A stretch of 32,377 nt of DNA from Eubacterium sp. GTDB lineage: Bacteria > Bacillota > Clostridia > Lachnospirales > Lachnospiraceae. Positions 9,312-18,072 of this stretch are shown here, piece by piece; the first letter of the stretch is position 1, and the number at the start of each line of letters is the position of its first letter. The position numbers and the translations under genes were made by a program. Location of the stretch: positions 1-32,377 of the forward strand of contig JALEKC010000031.1 in the NCBI GenBank assembly GCA_022769325.1. Direction: 5' to 3'. The notes beneath the pieces were generated by a model that did not search any database, had not been told where the DNA came from, and saw only the letters and a program-made list of their open reading frames with translations.

Positions 9312-10337
9312 GTGAAGAGAAGGTTAATAGCGACAGTTGGAGTAGCACTGTGTCTGACCGGATGTGGGATTTTGCCCACGGAAGAAGAGTTCGATGTTGC
9401 CCCGGTGTTGAAAGAATATGAAGGGGCAAGTTTTAATAAAGTGACGGTGACAAGAGGAACGCTGGAAAAAACGGAGGAAATCTCAGGAAAATATAAAGGA
9501 ACCGTGAAAGAAGATATCGAGCCGGATGGTGCCAGCGTCATCAAGAAAATATATGTCAAAAAAGGTGACCGGGTCAAGGCAGGGGATGTGGTGATGCAAT
9601 ACGAACTGCCGGGGAGTGAAAAAACATTAAAAGAATCTAACGAAAAGATTGAAAAGACGAAACTTCAGATAACTCAGGCCAGAGAATTGATGAAATTAGA
9701 AGTGGAAAAGCAAAAGAAAATCGGCGGTGGCAGTAAAGAAATTACCAATGCCAGAAATCAGTATGAGCAACAAATCAAGGCGTTGGAATCCAGTTTGGAA
9801 TTGTTAAAAATGGATGCCAAAATTGCCAAAGAAGAAATCGAAGAAGAGCAAATCACAGCATCCGTAAATGGCGTAGTAACGTATGTGGATTCCAAGGCAG
9901 AAGGTACTTATGGAACCGAGGGCGAAGCGGCGATAAAGATTGAAGGGAAGAAGAAAAACCGATTTGAGGCAAATAGCAAATATGCTTCCCATTGTAAAGA
10001 GGGAGACATTGTCACCATAGAGGTACGAGGACAAGAATATAAAGCAACGGTAAAAAAAGATCCTGAATCCACGGATTCCGTATATTTTTACCCGAGAAGC
10101 AAACTCAATCTGGAAGATGGAACCGTATGCTCCTATCAGGTGATTTTAAAAGAGAAAAAAGATATTTTATATCTGCCGTCTTCTATTGTATATTCCATGG
10201 GAGATAAACATGTTGTATATTATGAAGATGCCAATGGGTTAAAATCAACCAAGGAAGTTTCCATCGGAGAAACCATTGACAACTTTGTAGAGATTACCGC
10301 CGGCTTGGAAGAAAATGAACAAGTGATAGCAAATTAA
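9312..10337 (+). CDS. Lipoprotein HlyD/MacA-like adaptor, first of three
   Basis: This 341-aa extracytoplasmic adaptor belongs to the membrane fusion protein type that pairs with MacB-like ABC permeases. The GTG start at 9312 follows GGAGG; residues 1-18 are a lipoprotein signal with lipobox LTGC (Cys18), so it is lipid-anchored on the outer face of the membrane. A split lipoyl-like domain (about 73-100, KKGDRVKAGDVVMQYELPG, and 180-205) flanks a coiled-coil hairpin (about 101-180). Beta-barrel regions follow to the C-terminus (GLEENEQVIAN). First gene of the operon; the next starts 31 bases on. In a Gram-positive such adaptors probably act in substrate handling at the permease. Substrate unknown. 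Confidence 0.88.
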   Translation: MKRRLIATVGVALCLTGCGILPTEEEFDVAPVLKEYEGASFNKVTVTRGTLEKTEEISGKYKGTVKEDIEPDGASVIKKIYVKKGDRVKAGDVVMQYELPGSEKTLKESNEKIEKTKLQITQARELMKLEVEKQKKIGGGSKEITNARNQYEQQIKALESSLELLKMDAKIAKEEIEEEQITASVNGVVTYVDSKAEGTYGTEGEAAIKIEGKKKNRFEANSKYASHCKEGDIVTIEVRGQEYKATVKKDPESTDSVYFYPRSKLNLEDGTVCSYQVILKEKKDILYLPSSIVYSMGDKHVVYYEDANGLKSTKEVSIGETIDNFVEITAGLEENEQVIAN

Positions 10338-10368
10338 GGAAAAGGCGAAGGATTGGAGGTTACAAAAA

Positions 10369-11487
10369 GTGAAAAAAAGCAGACAGATAGGAGCGATCCT
10401 TTTAGCTGTGTCGATGATAACTTGTGGTTGTGGAAAATCGGCAGCCAACCAAGAAGATGTACCGGAATTAATGGAAGCAGTTGGGGTTGATATGGATACC
10501 GCAGTGGTAACCAAGATGGACCTCAGCGGCGTGACATCTTTTTCGGCTCAGATTGTACCCAAAATAGAAAAGATGGCCTTTCTTTCTTCCGGAAGTATTG
10601 ACCAGATGAAAGTGTCTATCGGAGATAAGGTAAAGAAGGGGCAGCTTCTGGCAACCCTGGCCGGAGGCAGTGGAAGAGTTAAGAGCCTCACGGAAGAGAT
10701 TGCCACATTGAAAGAAAATAATGCGGGAATCAATCAGCAGAGCGAATATGATATTGAAATGCTGGAAGAGAACCTTTCGGACTTGAAGAAGCAATACAAA
10801 GCTGCAAAAACAAAGCAGGAGAAAAAGCAGCTAAAAATGCAGATTGTGGAAAAAGAAGAAGATATTAAGATAGCAAAAGTGAAATTAAAACAGCAAAAAG
10901 AAATGCAACAATTGGAAATTCGACAAAAAGAAGCAGATATAGCAACAGCAAAGAAAAGTACCAAAAACTCAAAATTGTATTCTACCATTGATGGGGAAGT
11001 AATCAGTACCAGTGGTGGCAATGGCTATATGGTACAAGGGGGGAACGTGGCAATTCAAGTGGCCAATATGAAGGCTCCGCGTTTGAAAACCCAATATGTT
11101 TCCGACAGTAAGTTGGCGAAAGCAAGCAGCTATGTTGCCATTGTGGATGGGAAAAAATACGAGGTTGAAGTGGAAGAGCAGGAGGTATCCAGACAGGATG
11201 TTGAAATGGGAAACTATCCCAAAAACAGTTGGTTTGATTTTGTCTCTGATTCGGTAGATGCCAAGGTCGGCGGGTCAGCAACCATAGAACTCTATACCGA
11301 TACGGTGAAAGATGCACTGGTGGTACCGGCAAATGCAGTATTTCGCTCCAAAGAAGAATCCTATGTATATCTTGTGGAGGGGGATGCCAAGACGAAAACC
11401 GTTGTAAAGACAGGAACGGAAACCGATGCGTATATACAATTAGAAAGCGGAGTAAAGGAGGGCGATGTTGTTTATGTGGAAGGTTAA
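10369..11487 (+). CDS. Lipoprotein HlyD/MacA-like adaptor, second of three
   Basis: This 372-aa adaptor has the same architecture as the gene before it but is clearly diverged. It has a GTG start with TTGGAGG upstream, a lipoprotein signal ending ITCGC (probable Cys21), a lipoyl-like half (about 70-100, IGDKVKKGQLLATLAGG), a long coiled-coil hairpin (about 103-200, rich in Lys, Glu and Gln), the second lipoyl half (TIDGEVISTSGGNGYMV) and a C-terminal beta domain with ALVVPANAVF and ESGVKEGDVVYVEG, typical of RND/ABC adaptors. Its last 14 bases overlap the start of the third adaptor, which implies translational coupling. Substrate unknown. Confidence 0.88.
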   Translation: MKKSRQIGAILLAVSMITCGCGKSAANQEDVPELMEAVGVDMDTAVVTKMDLSGVTSFSAQIVPKIEKMAFLSSGSIDQMKVSIGDKVKKGQLLATLAGGSGRVKSLTEEIATLKENNAGINQQSEYDIEMLEENLSDLKKQYKAAKTKQEKKQLKMQIVEKEEDIKIAKVKLKQQKEMQQLEIRQKEADIATAKKSTKNSKLYSTIDGEVISTSGGNGYMVQGGNVAIQVANMKAPRLKTQYVSDSKLAKASSYVAIVDGKKYEVEVEEQEVSRQDVEMGNYPKNSWFDFVSDSVDAKVGGSATIELYTDTVKDALVVPANAVFRSKEESYVYLVEGDAKTKTVVKTGTETDAYIQLESGVKEGDVVYVEG

Positions 11488-12622
11488 ATATATCATAACC
11501 ATAAGTATGGCGATTCTTCTTTTATCCGCTTGCGGAAATGAAAAAAGTCAGGGGACGGGGGAAGTACTTCTTTATGAAAAGGAGGAAACGGCATCCGGAA
11601 GTGCAATCCAGCAAGAAGAATATGAAACTACGGAAGTTCGTCAGGAAACCTATAAAGAAGAATATTACGATAGTGCCGAGTTAGAATATACCGATACGGA
11701 AACCATCTATATTGATGATGAAGATGCCGTATTGGATGCGGTTAAAGTAAAAAAAGATCAGAAAATTAACAAAGGAGATGTCTTGGCGGTGTACCATGTA
11801 GAGACATCCAAAACCAAATTGCAAAAAGAGAAGATTTTGGTACAGCAGGCCCGTGCCAATTATGAGTCGGGGCTCAGCAATCTTCAGAATGCACTGTCCC
11901 AGGCGGAAAATGAGTTAATGACGGTGAAAAATGCAGCAGAGAAGAAGATTAAGCAGTTGGAAATCAAGAAGCAGAAGGAAGAAATCGCCAATTACAAAAA
12001 AGGGGAAAAAGATGTCATTGACCAGGAAAAGAATTATGCACAACTGGTAAGACGTCAAAACAAAACCAAACTGGTTGCGAAAAAAAGCGGAGTGGTGACT
12101 TCCACCGGAAAAGAATATGTGGGAGATGAGATTGATGCCTCCAAAAAAATTGTGGAAATGCGCAGCAACAACAAATGGGTCTTGAAGGTAAAGGATCCGG
12201 ATTCCAAATTGCGTTACAATATGGATGTGTCCGTGAGACTTGGGAAAAATATGAAAGATTACCAAAATGAAGTCAAAGGGAAAGTCATTACAGCAGCAGA
12301 CATAACAGGTGTTGAAGAGACGGACGAGTCCGGTGACAATATTGTATATGTAGAAGTCTCTTCGGCGGATAAGAAAAAATACAATTTTGAAAAATCCAAT
12401 GTTTATGTATATGCCGTTTCCTTCGCCGTGAAAGATGCACTGGTGGTAGATGCGGAAGCGATTAACCAGGAGGCAGTGGAATTCTCCAATAAACTTTATG
12501 TCAATGTATTGGAAAATGGAAAAATTCACAAACGGTACATCGTAAGTAATTATAATACAGAAACAGAATATCTGGTGGAACAAGGCGTCAGTGCCGGACA
12601 GACACTTGCGATATTGAGATAG
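11474..12622 (+). CDS. Lipoprotein HlyD-like adaptor, third of three
   Basis: This 382-aa adaptor has lipobox LSAC (Cys20), an acidic linker rich in Glu, Tyr and Thr (about 25-80), a lipoyl-like half with KKDQKINKGDVLAVYHVE, a coiled-coil hairpin (about 115-200), the second lipoyl half (TKLVAKKSGVVTSTGKEYVG) and a C-terminal beta domain ending QGVSAGQTLAIL. It is the most diverged of the three. The start is uncertain: ATG 11465 is only 2 bases from AAAGGAGG, TTG 11468 is 5 bases away and ATG 11474 is 11 bases away. It overlaps the second adaptor and is followed 17 bases later by the permease. Confidence 0.82.
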   Translation: MWKVKYIITISMAILLLSACGNEKSQGTGEVLLYEKEETASGSAIQQEEYETTEVRQETYKEEYYDSAELEYTDTETIYIDDEDAVLDAVKVKKDQKINKGDVLAVYHVETSKTKLQKEKILVQQARANYESGLSNLQNALSQAENELMTVKNAAEKKIKQLEIKKQKEEIANYKKGEKDVIDQEKNYAQLVRRQNKTKLVAKKSGVVTSTGKEYVGDEIDASKKIVEMRSNNKWVLKVKDPDSKLRYNMDVSVRLGKNMKDYQNEVKGKVITAADITGVEETDESGDNIVYVEVSSADKKKYNFEKSNVYVYAVSFAVKDALVVDAEAINQEAVEFSNKLYVNVLENGKIHKRYIVSNYNTETEYLVEQGVSAGQTLAILR

Positions 12623-12639
12623 GAGGCGCGGAGAGAACG

Positions 12640-15465
12640 ATGATTCGATTTATTAAACAAAAGTTGATACATAAAAAGTGGATGGTTGTCTGTCTGTTGA
12701 TTGGTAATATTTTATTGGCAGCGATCGCCAGCAGCAATCCCATGTATCGGGATGCGGCTCTGGAAAAGACATTGAAGTCTAAATATTCCAAGTATATCGA
12801 AGAAACCAATAAAGATCCCGGAGTGCTTTCTTTTTCTTCATCCGTTAATGCAGGAAAAAACAATGGAGAAGAATTTAAACAAATGGGAGAGACGGCGACA
12901 GAAGCTGCCGAAACTCTTGAGGTAGAGCAAAATTACCTGGTGAGTTTGTTTGAAACGTCCAAGGTTCGAGGGGAATATTTGCAGTCCAGGGGTAATAAAA
13001 CCACCACAAAATCCATGCGAATTGCCATGATGTCCGACTTAAAAGACCATATTTCCATCCTTGCCGGAGAATGCTATTCCGATGAACGTTTGGAAGATGG
13101 GGCATTGCCGGTGATTCTCAGTCAGCGTGCTATGAGTAAACTGGACGTGGTTCTGGGAGACGAAATGTCCTTTGAAAAATTGAAAAATGCAGATGGCTCA
13201 GATATTAAAGTGAAAATTGTGGGTGTTTTTGATGCGAAGGATTATTCGGATAATTATTGGGTGCAAAGCCCAAGTGAATACTATCTGGAAGTATTTACCA
13301 GCCCTAAATTATTTGAGAGCATTTTTATCAATTATGAAAAACCGGCCTTTAATATAACCGGTCAATGGAATCTTGTTTTTGATTATGAGAATGTAAAACC
13401 GGGGCAGGTAAATGCTTTGGTAAAAAATACGGAAACTTTGTGCCGAGAAGGTGCCAACGGAAGAAACTCTGCCATCGAGGAACCGGATTATCTGGCTGTT
13501 TTGCGAGATTACCAAACCACAGCAAAGAAGGTCTCCACGACCCTTTTGATTTTGCAGATTCCGGTTCTTGCCCTTTTGCTTGCCTTTATTTTCATGATAT
13601 CAAGGCAGATGCTGGATCTTGAACAAAATGAGATTGCTTTGCTGAAAAGCCGAGGAAGCAGTCGCAATCAGATTTTGTTGATTTATACCATACAGTCGGC
13701 AATTTTGTCCATTGCCAGCAGTATTGTGGGGGTTCCCCTGGGCTTTTTCATGACAAAAGCTCTCGGTTCCACCAACGGATTTTTGGAATTTATTCAGAGG
13801 AAGGCTTTGCATGTAAGTTTGAGTCCCGGAGTCTTTTTATATACGTTGGGAGCTATCTTGATTTCCATAGCCGTGATGGTTCTTCCGGTAATAAAAGATG
13901 CCAATGTGACTATTGTCAATGTAAAACACCGCAATATTGGTAACAAGCCAAATATATTCAGTCGGGTTTATCTGGATGTGATTTTCCTTGCAGTATCGTT
14001 GTACGGCTTATATTCATTTACTGCACGAAAATCGGAATTGATGACAAGTATGTTGGAAGGAGATTCGCTGGATCCGTTTTTGTTTATTTGTTCTTCCCTA
14101 TTTATCATTAGTGCCAGCCTGGTAGGACTTCGCCTCCAGCCATTGTTGATAAAAATCGTATATTACATAGGAAGAAAATTTTGGAAACCGGCATTTTTTG
14201 CTTCTTTCCTGCAAATTATCCGTACGCGGAAAAAACAGGGATTTATGATGGTGTTTTTGATGTTCACCGTGTCTCTTGGAATCTTTAATTCCACCGTGGC
14301 CCGGACCATATTATCCAATTCCGAAAAAGGGATTGATTATAGCAATGGGGCGGATTTGGTCCTTCAGCAGCCATGGGAGGACAATTCCCTTTTGATGCAA
14401 TATTATACCGATTTGGAATTAACTTATACGGAACCGGATTTCGGAGTGTATGAATCCATGGAAGGGGTTACGGCAGCCACAAAGGTTTACAAAAATGATG
14501 AGATAGAAACTTCTTACAAGAGTAAAGAAGGGGGAAATAGTGTCAAGACAACGTTGATGGGAATTGATACCAAAACCTTCGGGGAGACCGTGTCAAAATT
14601 CCAGACCGACTTGCTCCCGGTTCATATTAACCGTTACTTAAATTCCATGGCAAAACGTTCGGATGCCGTACTTTTGAGCATGAACTACCATACCAATTAT
14701 GGTATGCGTCTGGGTGATACCATTACCTATACCAATGACGAGGGAGTAGAAGCCCAGGGAGTTGTGTACGGATTTGTGGATTATTTCCCGAGCTATATTG
14801 AGACCACTCATGAGTTGAATGAGGAAAATAAACTGGTTTCCACAGAAAATTATCTGATTGTGGCAAATCTGGCGCAAGTCCAGCAAAACTTTGGTCTCCG
14901 CCCCTATCAGGTGTGGTTGAAAACCGATGGAAGTTCCCGATTCATTTATGATTATGCGAAGAAAAATAATATTACCTATACAACATTTGAAGATGCTTCT
15001 GCCCAAAAAGTGGAAGTGAAAAATGATGCTTTATTCCAGGGAACCAATGGAATTCTCACCATGAGTTTTATCATTATTTTGATTTTATGTTGTACCGGAT
15101 TCCTGATTTACTGGATATTGTCCATTCGCCAGAGAGAATTGCTTTTTGGTGTCTTTCGTGCCATGGGTATGTCCAAGGGCGAGATTATTCAAATGCTAAT
15201 CAATGAGCAGATATTCAGTTCCGGTATTTCCATTATCATTGGAACCATAATCGGCCTTTTGGCATCCAAGATGTTTGTTCCGCTGGTACAGATTTTCTAT
15301 GCGTCCACCGACCAGGCAATTCCATTGGAAGTTGTCAATGAGACGTTGGATATGGTTCGATTGTTTAGCATCATCGGCATTGTAATTATTGTTTGTATGG
15401 TTGTGCTTGGTAAGTTGATTTCGAAGATTAACATTTCTCAGGCATTGAAACTTGGCGAAGATTAA
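12640..15465 (+). CDS. FtsX/MacB-type ABC transporter permease
   Basis: This 941-aa permease has a membrane span near the N-terminus (about 14-31), a large outside domain (about 32-295), a first FtsX core with three spans (about 300-322, 347-372, 395-417), two more spans (about 445-460 and 478-497), another span near 535-552, a second outside domain (about 555-800) and a second FtsX core (about 803-935). The cytoplasmic coupling segments LLKSRGSSRNQI and FRAMGMSKGEII are conserved FtsX features. Two FtsX units in one chain suggest it could work as a monomer, or as a dimer of fused halves. GGAGG precedes ATG 12640. It is flanked by three adaptors and two ATPases, which makes it the membrane core of the operon. 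Confidence 0.9.
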   Translation: MIRFIKQKLIHKKWMVVCLLIGNILLAAIASSNPMYRDAALEKTLKSKYSKYIEETNKDPGVLSFSSSVNAGKNNGEEFKQMGETATEAAETLEVEQNYLVSLFETSKVRGEYLQSRGNKTTTKSMRIAMMSDLKDHISILAGECYSDERLEDGALPVILSQRAMSKLDVVLGDEMSFEKLKNADGSDIKVKIVGVFDAKDYSDNYWVQSPSEYYLEVFTSPKLFESIFINYEKPAFNITGQWNLVFDYENVKPGQVNALVKNTETLCREGANGRNSAIEEPDYLAVLRDYQTTAKKVSTTLLILQIPVLALLLAFIFMISRQMLDLEQNEIALLKSRGSSRNQILLIYTIQSAILSIASSIVGVPLGFFMTKALGSTNGFLEFIQRKALHVSLSPGVFLYTLGAILISIAVMVLPVIKDANVTIVNVKHRNIGNKPNIFSRVYLDVIFLAVSLYGLYSFTARKSELMTSMLEGDSLDPFLFICSSLFIISASLVGLRLQPLLIKIVYYIGRKFWKPAFFASFLQIIRTRKKQGFMMVFLMFTVSLGIFNSTVARTILSNSEKGIDYSNGADLVLQQPWEDNSLLMQYYTDLELTYTEPDFGVYESMEGVTAATKVYKNDEIETSYKSKEGGNSVKTTLMGIDTKTFGETVSKFQTDLLPVHINRYLNSMAKRSDAVLLSMNYHTNYGMRLGDTITYTNDEGVEAQGVVYGFVDYFPSYIETTHELNEENKLVSTENYLIVANLAQVQQNFGLRPYQVWLKTDGSSRFIYDYAKKNNITYTTFEDASAQKVEVKNDALFQGTNGILTMSFIIILILCCTGFLIYWILSIRQRELLFGVFRAMGMSKGEIIQMLINEQIFSSGISIIIGTIIGLLASKMFVPLVQIFYASTDQAIPLEVVNETLDMVRLFSIIGIVIIVCMVVLGKLISKINISQALKLGED

Positions 15466-15477
15466 GGGAGGACAGCG

Positions 15478-16158
15478 ATGGAAAATATTTTAATGACACA
15501 GGGAATTAAACAGGCATTTCCAATTGGCTCCGGTGGAGAGTTTGTAGTCTTGCATGATATCAATATTCAGATTCCCAAAGGAAAACTTACGATGCTTCGC
15601 GGGCGCTCCGGTTCCGGAAAGACAACGCTTATGAATATTTTGAGTGCGTTGGATTATCCCAAAGAAGGGTCGGTGGTCTTTGAAGGAGAAGCACTGGAAC
15701 AGATGAATGACCATCAGCGGGAAGAATTTCGCAAAAATCATGTGGGATTTGTCTTTCAGTCGGTGGCATTGATTCCCATGATGACAGCCTTTGAAAATGT
15801 GGAATTTTTGCTCCGTCTGGCGAAATATCCCGGCAATAAGCGGGCAAGAGCGGAAGAATGCCTGAAATTGGTGGGATTGGGACAGCGTATGCATCATATG
15901 CCCCAGGAATTATCCGGAGGAGAACAGCAGCGTGTGGCTATTGCCCGTGCTATTGCACACAAGCCCAAGATTATTTTTGCAGATGAACCGACGGCAGAGC
16001 TGGACACAGCTACCGGTCTTCAGGTTATGAAGATATTCAAAGAATTGATTGAAAAAGAAGAAGTAACAATTGTTATGACAACTCATGATATGGGGTTGTT
16101 GGATATTGCAGATTGCATTTATCATTTGGAGGATGGTGAGATTGTTGATGAAAAATAA
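15478..16158 (+). CDS. ABC transporter ATP-binding protein, first of two
   Basis: This 226-aa ATPase is of the LolD/MacB/FtsE class. Motifs: Walker [12 protein letters not shown]-loop [12 protein letters not shown], signature [15 protein letters not shown], Walker [14 protein letters not shown] with catalytic Glu, and H-loop TTHD. All are intact, so it should hydrolyse ATP. GGGAGG lies just before ATG 15478, 12 bases after the permease stop. The next ATPase begins inside its last codons (ATG at 16148, 11-base overlap), which suggests equal production and possibly a heterodimer. Partner permease is the gene before it. Confidence 0.93.
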
Positions 16159-17152
16159 GAAAATAGATGCTGTCATGGAAAAAATAAATGATTTTCGTCA
16201 TATCAACCGCCAGACATCCGGGGGAGTAAGTGTGGATGAAACCATGGATATTCCGGATGATGTGATGATAGAATGTGACGGTCTTGTTAAAATATACAAA
16301 ACAAAAGACATCGAAGTGCTGGCTTTACAGGGACTGGATTTGACGGTAAAGCGAGGCGAATTGATGGCCATTATCGGAAATAGTGGAAGCGGAAAGTCTA
16401 CCTTTCTTAATATGATAGGAGGATTGGACCGCCCATCTGCCGGGAAATTATATGTAGATGGAAAAAATCTGTTTCAGATGAATGAAGAGGAATTGGTGGA
16501 ATACAAAAGAAGTACGGTGGGATTTGTGTGGCAGAATAATGCAAGAAATCTTCTTCCGTATCTGACTGCCTGGGAAAACGTAATGACCCCTATGCTGTTT
16601 ATGAAAGATGGAAAGAGCGAGGCAGAAAAAAAACAGCGGGCAGAGGAACTCTTGGAATTGGTAGGTCTTTCCAAACGGAAAGATAATAAACTGAGTCAGC
16701 TGTCCGGAGGAGAGCAGCAGCGAGTAGCCATTGCCATTGCCCTTGCCAATGAACCTAAACTTCTGCTTGCCGACGAGCCTACCGGAGCCGTGGACCGAAA
16801 GACGGCGGATGATATTTTAGATATGTTCCGCAAACTCAATGAGCAGTTGGGAATTACCATTGTTATCGTAACTCATGACAATGAGCTGGCATCCAAAGTT
16901 AATCGAGTGATTTCCATTCGGGATGGAAAAACCAGCAGTGAGCGTATTATGAAAAATGAATACAAAAATCGTCTGGAAGATATTTCTATCGAGTGGCAGC
17001 ATGAAGAGGCACAGGAAGAATTTGTTGTGTTAGATCGTGCCGGAAGAATTCAGATTCCGTCGGAATTGCTCAAAGAAATGGGGATGAATGGAAATAAAGT
17101 AAAAGTTGAATTTGTGGATGGTAAAATTGTTATTGAAAAACCCGAAGAATAA
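16148..17152 (+). CDS. ABC ATPase with C-terminal SpoVT/AbrB-like domain, second of two
   Basis: This 334-aa protein has an unusual N-terminal extension (about 1-38), a complete ABC ATPase (about 40-260; Walker A GNSGSGKST, Q-loop VGFVWQNNARNLLP, signature [15 protein letters not shown], Walker B LLLADEPTGAVD, H-loop VTHD), a charged linker (about 260-288) and residues 290-334 resembling a SpoVT/AbrB swapped-hairpin domain: VVLDRAGRIQIPSELLKEMG, then VKVEFVDGKIVIEKP. That domain is known mainly in DNA-binding transition-state regulators and antitoxins, where it dimerises. Here it could dimerise the ATPase or let it bind its own operon DNA. ATG 16148 overlaps the first ATPase; its ribosome-binding site GGAGGA is 14 bases away, so coupling is likely. 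Confidence 0.88.
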   Translation: MKNKKIDAVMEKINDFRHINRQTSGGVSVDETMDIPDDVMIECDGLVKIYKTKDIEVLALQGLDLTVKRGELMAIIGNSGSGKSTFLNMIGGLDRPSAGKLYVDGKNLFQMNEEELVEYKRSTVGFVWQNNARNLLPYLTAWENVMTPMLFMKDGKSEAEKKQRAEELLELVGLSKRKDNKLSQLSGGEQQRVAIAIALANEPKLLLADEPTGAVDRKTADDILDMFRKLNEQLGITIVIVTHDNELASKVNRVISIRDGKTSSERIMKNEYKNRLEDISIEWQHEEAQEEFVVLDRAGRIQIPSELLKEMGMNGNKVKVEFVDGKIVIEKPEE

Positions 17153-17214: not shown

Positions 17215-18072
17215 ATGAGTGGAAGACGAGAATATAGAAAACGACAATGGCGACGAAGACAGTCCAGAAAATTAGAACTTTTATTGAAAGGTTCCATGAT
17301 TGCAGCAGTTGTGCTTGTTCTTGTTTTGATTGGTATTAAGGTTGCCTCCACTGTACAAAGTCGCAATGAGCAAAAAAGAGCGGAAGAAGCTTTGAATCAA
17401 CAGCAGGAGAAGATGGTAGAGACACCTCTGGTAGAGGAGCCAACACCTCCGCCTACACCAGTGCCCAAAGATAAAGCGGTGGCATTGACATTTGACGATG
17501 GACCTTCTCGGGACAATGACGGAAAAATCATTGAGACGCTCCAGGCAAATGGAGCTCACGCTACCTTTTTTGTGTTGGGAAATCGTGCCCGGGTGGATGG
17601 TGATATTATGCAAATGATAACGGGTGCCGGATGTGAGATTGCCAGTCACTCCTGGGATCATCCACAACTTAGTAAGATAAAATGGAAAAAAGTGAAAAGT
17701 CAGTTAAAGCGGACGGATGATATTGTGGCAAAACTTTTGAACGGGTATCAGATTACCCTGCTTCGTCCTCCTTATGGTTCCATTAGCAAGACCATGCGAA
17801 AGAAAATCGATAAGCCAATGATTTTGTGGAGCTTGGATACCTTGGACTGGAAAACCCGCAATGCGAAAAAAATATTCAACGGTGTGAAAAAAGAAGTCAA
17901 AGATGGGGATATCATTTTGATGCATGATATTCATCCGGAGACGGCGGAGGCCTTGACGAAGATTGTTCCGTGGCTTTCCGAACAAGGATATGATATGTTG
18001 ACCGTCAGTGAACTGATGGAACGCAAAGGAAAAAAACTGGAGGCAGGAAAAGCCTATCTGGATGCAAATTAA
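17215..18072 (+). CDS. Membrane-anchored polysaccharide deacetylase (NodB/CE4)
   Basis: This 285-aa CE4 enzyme removes N- or O-acetyl groups from glycans. It has a very basic N-terminus (about 1-25), one membrane span (27-44), a Pro/Thr/Glu-rich stalk (about 70-85) and a NodB domain (87-270). The catalytic motifs are intact: TFDDGP (base Asp94, metal ligand Asp95), HSWDH (His145, His149), RPPYG (from Arg184), SLDTLDW and LMHDIH (His237). The catalytic domain faces outside. Peptidoglycan N-acetylglucosamine is the most usual substrate for this layout; xylan acetyl groups are an alternative, given the glucuronoxylan genes next to it. It has its own promoter. Confidence 0.92.
   Translation: MSGRREYRKRQWRRRQSRKLELLLKGSMIAAVVLVLVLIGIKVASTVQSRNEQKRAEEALNQQQEKMVETPLVEEPTPPPTPVPKDKAVALTFDDGPSRDNDGKIIETLQANGAHATFFVLGNRARVDGDIMQMITGAGCEIASHSWDHPQLSKIKWKKVKSQLKRTDDIVAKLLNGYQITLLRPPYGSISKTMRKKIDKPMILWSLDTLDWKTRNAKKIFNGVKKEVKDGDIILMHDIHPETAEALTKIVPWLSEQGYDMLTVSELMERKGKKLEAGKAYLDAN

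Follow-up and report, generated by a model that had tools for sequence, protein, structure and literature searches.

Transport systems such as MacAB, YknXYZ and Spr0693-0695 combine an anchored MacA-type adaptor with an FtsX-type permease and an ATPase of the LolD/MacB type, and each has one adaptor gene and one kind of ATPase. The MacB entries are dimers (PMC5985334) and Spr0694-0695 is dimeric (PMC5768738), as given in the accessible parts of those papers. A single-chain permease is found in YbbAP-TesA of Escherichia coli where, according to the accessible part of the account (PMC12646458), YbbP is pseudosymmetric, has 10 transmembrane helices and two ectodomains, and binds two YbbA ATPases via two coupling helices; these are two copies of one ATPase, the partner is the hydrolase TesA and no adaptor is named there. 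BceAB likewise possesses a single-chain FtsX permease, described in the accessible part of PMC5985334 with one ectodomain, a two-component partner and no adaptor. The nearest precedent for different adaptors in one pump is TriABC-OpmH of Pseudomonas aeruginosa, in which two different adaptors are needed and have been argued to share one hexamer (accessible parts of PMC13328181 and PMC8277102), although this is an RND pump with an outer membrane channel. Here we describe an ATP-binding cassette (ABC) transporter locus in a 32,377-nucleotide stretch of DNA (the window; contig JALEKC010000031.1 of assembly GCA_022769325.1) from a Eubacterium sp. of the Lachnospiraceae, which differs from MacAB-like systems in having three adaptors (A1, A2 and A3), a single-chain double permease, two ATPases (N1 and N2) and an AbrB-like domain.

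The locus comprises six genes, all on the + strand at positions 9312-17152, and the gene calls agree in coordinates with the set that an earlier note on this DNA had proposed, namely three lipoprotein adaptors, a double-FtsX permease and two ATPases. It is a real variant of the known type VII exporters, widely conserved in gut Clostridia, and no new kind of system. We consider, with a probability of roughly 0.55, that it represents a type VII ABC exporter with two ATPases and originally one adaptor, the gene for which was triplicated a single time to give an obligate mixed assembly with A2 and A3 as neighbours.

A single copy is present in the genome from which the window derives, an 87% complete draft. 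Strong matches to the permease (E <= 3.1e-129) were found in 22 of 61 close relatives, that genome counted, and at E <= 1e-30 the permease was matched in 47 of 397 genomes from the family, in 57 of 391 from the class and in 8 of 299 from the phylum, these sets overlapping. Named records with the permease include Lachnospiraceae, Roseburia, Lachnoclostridium, Eubacterium (among them E. xylanophilum ATCC 35991) and other Clostridia. Such records gave 33 loci, one of which (L063) is an 18-residue end; 84 loci were analysed beside the window, consisting of the other 32, 51 further loci (after the repeats L092 and L093 were dropped) and L021, with four genomes contributing two loci each. The contig extended far enough on both sides in 72 loci, of which 71 are complete by gene position, A2 and A3 being separate in 46 and fused in 25. 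Since 71 of 72 usable relatives hold every component by position, the set is not due to chance. Profile checks take out L143 and L103, the latter with A2 split over two frames, beside the one incomplete locus L059, so that 69 of 72 loci pass at gene level; this is the count of conservation that the earlier note had called for.

All three adaptors have lipoprotein-like N-termini. TIGR01730 (RND_mfp) is matched by A1 (1.3e-20) and by A2 (6.6e-18), both under the curated NCBIfam cut-off, and A3 is the weakest of the three by Pfam and NCBIfam, with only a weak biotin-lipoyl match. In a profile search of the PDB, a profile built from 27 A3 proteins matched MacA (4dk0) at 1.9e-17 over profile positions 51-378 and, at 1.4e-9, a 695-residue chain named as joined RND adaptors (6vej), which we take to be TriA-TriB in a man-made joined chain. 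The AlphaFold model of A3 (mean predicted local distance difference test score, pLDDT, 83.8; residues 1-50 unordered) has lipoyl-like strands flanking a helical hairpin, followed by further strands, and its Foldseek matches comprise AcrA, MacA (5nik, 4dk0), MexA and others. Hinge motion would, in our view, account for the moderate template modelling (TM) scores (for 5nik, 0.57 by query). On its predicted structure and profile match A3 is a MacA-type adaptor, and A1 and A2, which match the A3 profile and one another, are assigned to the same type from these and the RND_mfp matches. The A3 model fits the adaptor plan of a split lipoyl domain around a helical hairpin, followed by a beta-barrel and a membrane-proximal domain. 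The N-terminal anchor expected of such adaptors is here of lipid type: among loci with the whole set by position, a lipobox-like pattern was found in 67/71 A1, 42/46 A2, 42/46 A3 and 25/25 fused genes. Structure prediction, proposed earlier as the way to expose a false adaptor and run here on the doubtful A3, did not refute the identification of three adaptor genes.

In 29 of the 84 loci a single gene of 622-860 amino acids replaces A2 and A3. When compared with full profiles, the first half of the fused gene was best matched by A2 in 29/29 and the second by A3 in 28/29, the exception being L124; with profiles built from named (other) loci the figures were 27/29 and 28/29. The A3 match begins at profile column 42-52 in 18 of 28 fusions, that is, past the signal peptide and lipobox. 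No signal peptide was visible by eye at the A2-A3 junction in any of the 29, nor was a lipid anchor for the A3 half. A second lipobox flagged by pattern in L115 and L142 was rejected, as the junction sequences do not bear it out. Fusion therefore holds A2 and A3 in these loci at 1:1 as neighbours on one lipid anchor.

To place the adaptors in a wider setting, 34 loci from other families were fetched, 28 picked among matches of the class search and six from the phylum search. A single adaptor lies directly upstream of the permease in 28 of these; three are triple (L168, L169 and L197) and three were left unclassed, L173 and L189 being cut and L180 having no recognised adaptor. A further locus with three adaptors is L141, which comes from a different family within the order of the window. 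The best profile for the 28 single adaptors was A1, except in L192 (A3) and L193 (A2). L178 has a further adaptor farther upstream, and in L184 and L185 an adaptor-like gene follows N2, with a second permease match beyond it in the genome of L184. Both ATPases lie beside the permease in 23 of the 34, and N2 alone in the two cut loci L189 and L193 (by eye). Paenibacillus cellulosilyticus provides a named one-adaptor example, in the order ATPase, adaptor, permease, ATPase.

In an adaptor tree of 139 rows, A1 (37), A2 (37), A3 (37) and the single adaptors (28) each fall on one side of a branch, with Shimodaira-Hasegawa-like approximate likelihood ratio test (SH-aLRT) supports of 99, 99, 91 and 95 respectively, in a tree with many long end branches and the lowest support for A3; A1 lies nearest to the singles. 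The permease tree (100 rows, with 10 near-identical and nine cut or odd loci such as L021, L058 and L143 left out) needs a single transition between the one-adaptor and three-adaptor states (support 100), and four between separate and fused A2-A3. If the root is assumed to lie among the singles, the split state would be ancestral and the A2-A3 fusion would have arisen about four times. A picture of serial duplication would fit these sequences, a single adaptor giving rise to A1 and a common ancestor of A2 and A3, which then gave rise to both. The presence of three adaptors can thus be explained by evolution, because most of the loci fetched from other families have one and a single change in the tree suffices.

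The permease contains two PF02687 (FtsX) stretches. Its AlphaFold model (pLDDT 77.0; predicted TM score 0.67) has approximately 10 transmembrane helices, counted by eye, and two ectodomains of approximately 220 residues each, which follow the first and seventh helices, so that an extracytoplasmic domain lies between the first and second helices of each half, as in type VII ABC (FtsX) proteins. The top two Foldseek matches are both full-length matches to E. coli YbbP (E 1.1e-19 and 9.7e-19; TM-scores 0.44 and 0.47 by query), followed by BceB, the second closest fold, and then by MacB, LolC/E and others over about half the length; the permease profile matched LolC at 1e-4. The helix number and paired ectodomains of the model are those of YbbP, and the chain would be pseudosymmetric in the same way. 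BceB has one ectodomain where this model has two, and MacB carries its ATPase fused N-terminally to a four-helix dimeric permease, whereas here the ATPases are separate and the permease is a double one of about 10 helices. The label "MacAB-type" given in the earlier note is thus appropriate at superfamily level, but the nearest architecture by fold is single-chain YbbP and not MacB.

N1 and N2 are different proteins encoded by two distinct genes, in contrast to YbbAP, in which the same ATPase is used twice. All 75 uncut N2 proteins carry Walker A, signature, Walker B and H-loop; among 79 uncut N1 proteins these occur in 79, 79, 77 and 78 respectively, and 77 have all four; the exceptions are L059, in which N1 is shortened, and L095, which misses the Walker B pattern. 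The earlier proposal that the two ATPases form a heterodimer fits this pair of distinct, intact-motif proteins on a single-chain permease of two halves, and N1 and N2 would on this basis pair with each other.

The C-terminal extension of N2 carries a further domain that was absent from the earlier description. An AbrB/MazE-like motif was found in 76 of 78 N2 proteins (the exceptions being L021, cut, and L058, masked) and in none of 82 N1 proteins. PF04014 was matched by 24 of 42 N2 tails at E <= 0.01 (best 5.1e-7), with the tail in the window just under the cut-off (4.9e-5; 23.6 bits against 24.7). A profile search of the PDB with the tail returned AbrB and MazE at E 0.014-0.028, ranked under chance-looking matches to signal recognition particle proteins. 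By eye the same domain is present in all 25 tails shown from the 34 other-family loci, and it occurs on the plasmid copy of Paenibacillus cellulosilyticus. The N2 tail is assigned as AbrB/MazE-like with good but not complete confidence. The AbrB-like fold is normally an intertwined dimer. AbrB possesses an arginine pair that is missing from the tail in the window, and DNA binding by the domain was not adopted.

In the assembly that we propose, the core would be a single YbbP-like permease chain, the two FtsX halves of which mimic the MacB dimer, driven by an N1-N2 heterodimer under the two halves. The lipid-anchored A1, A2 and A3 would sit jointly on the two ectodomains; descended from a single ancestral gene triplicated once, the copies would have become obligate partners in a hetero-assembly, with A2 and A3 adjacent and 1:1. 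When the permease closes, driven by ATP, an amphipathic substrate located in the outer leaflet or outside the membrane would be forced outward through the adaptors. Mechanotransmission is established for MacB. We favour a mixed adaptor assembly because of the 29 natural A2-A3 fusions and the near-strict co-conservation, and the mixed ring put forward in the earlier note survives to this extent; an even, MacA-like stem does not fit the hairpin lengths or the A1 proteins that have no hairpin. The hairpin-bearing span between the lipoyl halves measures 96 residues in A1, 118 in A2 and 105 in A3 of the window and is steady in its closest relatives. Because the spans differ, co-vary at most weakly when tested for a common stem and leave no A1 hairpin in four loci, a uniform MacA-like funnel does not fit. 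A mixed assembly, if real, would have no straight, equal-walled stem of the MacA kind and, without an outer membrane channel to meet, an uneven stem may not matter.

Several observations weigh against this assembly. Across loci the hairpin spans have Spearman coefficients of 0.29 for A1-A2 (69 loci; p 0.016, uncorrected for kinship), -0.10 for A1-A3 (68 loci) and 0.14 for A2-A3 (71 loci), with L021, L058, L103, L122, L143 and rows lacking both anchor glycines left out. The A1 span is only 29 residues in L100, L133, L134 and L139, which therefore leaves no room for a coiled-coil hairpin. Using the profiles from other loci, the first half of the fused gene in L140 and L142 and the second half in L129 are closer to A1. 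L143 has no recognisable A2 or A3 with profiles built only from named loci, and L059 has fused adaptors and a shortened N1 but no N2, and is perhaps decaying. The Q-loop pattern fits 75/75 N2 proteins but 52/79 of N1. Nine of the 34 other-family loci (L173, L174, L175, L177, L180, L182, L183, L196 and L199) have neither N1 nor N2 beside the permease by eye; L174, L175, L177, L182, L183, L196 and L199 consist of adaptor and permease, and their ATPases may be encoded at other sites in the genome. Outward transport is inferred because adaptors are present, and YbbP itself works with a lipid hydrolase. The contacts of the adaptors and ATPases, and their order around the permease, are likewise proposed from gene content and single-protein models.

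The features of the locus are collected in Table 1. A1 starts with GTG, preceded by a GGAGGA-like ribosome site. N1 and N2 overlap by 11 bases, and the open frame of N2 could begin earlier, at 16085.

Table 1. Positions of the transporter genes, the N2 domain and the downstream gene in the window.
Feature	Position	Strand	Remarks
A1, lipoprotein adaptor (MacA/RND_mfp type)	9312..10337	+	Group nearest to the single adaptor of other families
A2, second lipoprotein adaptor	10369..11487	+	GTG start
A3, third lipoprotein adaptor	11465..12622	+	23-base overlap with A2; profile match to MacA 4dk0
Permease, 941 amino acids	12640..15465	+	Two FtsX stretches; YbbP-like predicted fold
N1, ABC ATPase	15478..16158	+	Walker A, signature, Walker B and H-loop all present
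N2, ABC ATPase with C-terminal extension	16148..17152	+	Best NCBIfam match LolD, under cut-off; motifs present
AbrB/MazE-like domain (probable), C-terminus of N2	17012..17149	+	
Polysaccharide deacetylase gene, directly downstream of N2	17215..18072	+	Present in 17/84 loci, the ones closest to the window

The recurrent flanking genes vary by clade. Genes for polysaccharide deacetylase (17 loci) and SpoVA-like, BlaI-like and FtsW/MurG-like genes are each restricted to a small number of loci, which mostly belong to a single clade (several assigned by eye), and response-regulator-like genes cluster in three only (L124, L125 and L137). The deacetylase gene in the window hints at a link to the cell wall. 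BlaI-like repressor genes were seen by eye upstream in L032, L033, L034, L037, L040 and L059, followed in L033 by a large membrane protein, and FtsW-like and MurG-like genes by eye upstream of the one-adaptor system in L184 and L185. Lipoprotein genes of one cluster, at most several in tandem, lie beside the operon in L061, L124, L127, L129, L130, L140 and L142; six of the seven proteins scanned match DUF6034 (PF19499), and that of L061 has no Pfam match. Among close relatives DUF6034 occurs in 11 of 22 genomes with the transporter and in 0 of 39 without it. Family-wide (E <= 0.001) the figures are 13 of 47 and 57 of 350 (p 0.066), taking two draws of 397 genomes as identical. The genome from which the window derives gave no DUF6034 match, and with the family-wide co-occurrence weak, these lipoproteins were set aside as cargo and are a weak lead only. 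No TesA-like hydrolase was recognised by eye among the recurrent neighbours, no profile search aimed at TesA having been made. No clue to the substrate was found among the recurrent flanking genes, which are partly annotated, in line with the earlier remark that no precursor peptide or modifying enzyme is visible nearby.

These neighbours bear on a different role, which we regard as unlikely: that of a mechanotransmitter like FtsEX or BceAB, in which ATP would move extracellular parts so as to control cell-wall enzymes or lipoproteins and no substrate would be carried. In favour of it, BceB has the fold most like that of the permease once YbbP is set aside, and some A1 proteins have no hairpin; the deacetylase gene that follows in 17/84 loci, the mostly-DUF6034 cluster in seven and the FtsW-like and MurG-like genes of L184 and L185 also count for it. 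None of these neighbours is general, however, and the DUF6034 association is weak family-wide; response-regulator-like genes are confined to their three loci, given partly annotated neighbours, and MacA-type adaptors are known from export. We give no greater weight to an extractor like LolCDE or YbbAP, which would draw lipids or lipoproteins out of the outer leaflet for transfer to the adaptors. The best match of N2 (LolD, under cut-off), the match of the permease profile to LolC and the closeness of its fold to YbbP would all suit such a system, and the YbbP system is reported to extract hydrophobic compounds (accessible part of PMC12646458). The likeness to LolD is nevertheless general to this branch of ATPases, which many families match, and no general lipoprotein or hydrolase neighbour was seen among the recurrent ones. 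To our knowledge, moreover, LolCDE and YbbAP do not use MacA-type adaptors.

The three adaptors might instead act separately, each forming its own oligomer or serving its own substrate and taking turns on one permease. They do form three distinct groups, with hairpin lengths that differ and co-vary at most weakly. Against this, A2 and A3 appear to have fused into a single chain about four times, the A3 anchor being lost, and all three are retained together in nearly all usable relatives; this is the least probable of the alternatives, and the suggestion in the earlier note that the adaptors serve different substrates is made less likely by the fusions. The mixed assembly of a triplicated adaptor is retained as the favoured reading. 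A more elaborate form of it, which we hold to be a long shot of much the same order as the mechanotransmitter, would have a homomeric ring turned by one triplication into an ordered, obligate three-subunit ring, with the AbrB-like domain specific to N2 tying two whole transporters together on the cytoplasmic side.

In the literature searched, which covered few subscription journals, no paper describing a three-adaptor FtsX exporter was recognised; no ABC ATPase with an AbrB-like tail was recognised there either, nor was a paper on DUF6034 found. The conserved AbrB-like domain on one of the two ATPases is an unexplained feature of the family. This family bears on what such adaptors do in cells that lack an outer membrane, since living relatives with one, three or fused adaptors on the same kind of permease and ATPases allow the role and arrangement of the adaptors to be compared. 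The fused genes fix the relation between neighbours and a 1:1 ratio, which is useful for structural work. If true, a three-subunit ring with tied transporters would represent a quaternary architecture new to ABC exporters, and the one, three and fused states would form a natural series in which a protein ring can be watched as it gains complexity.

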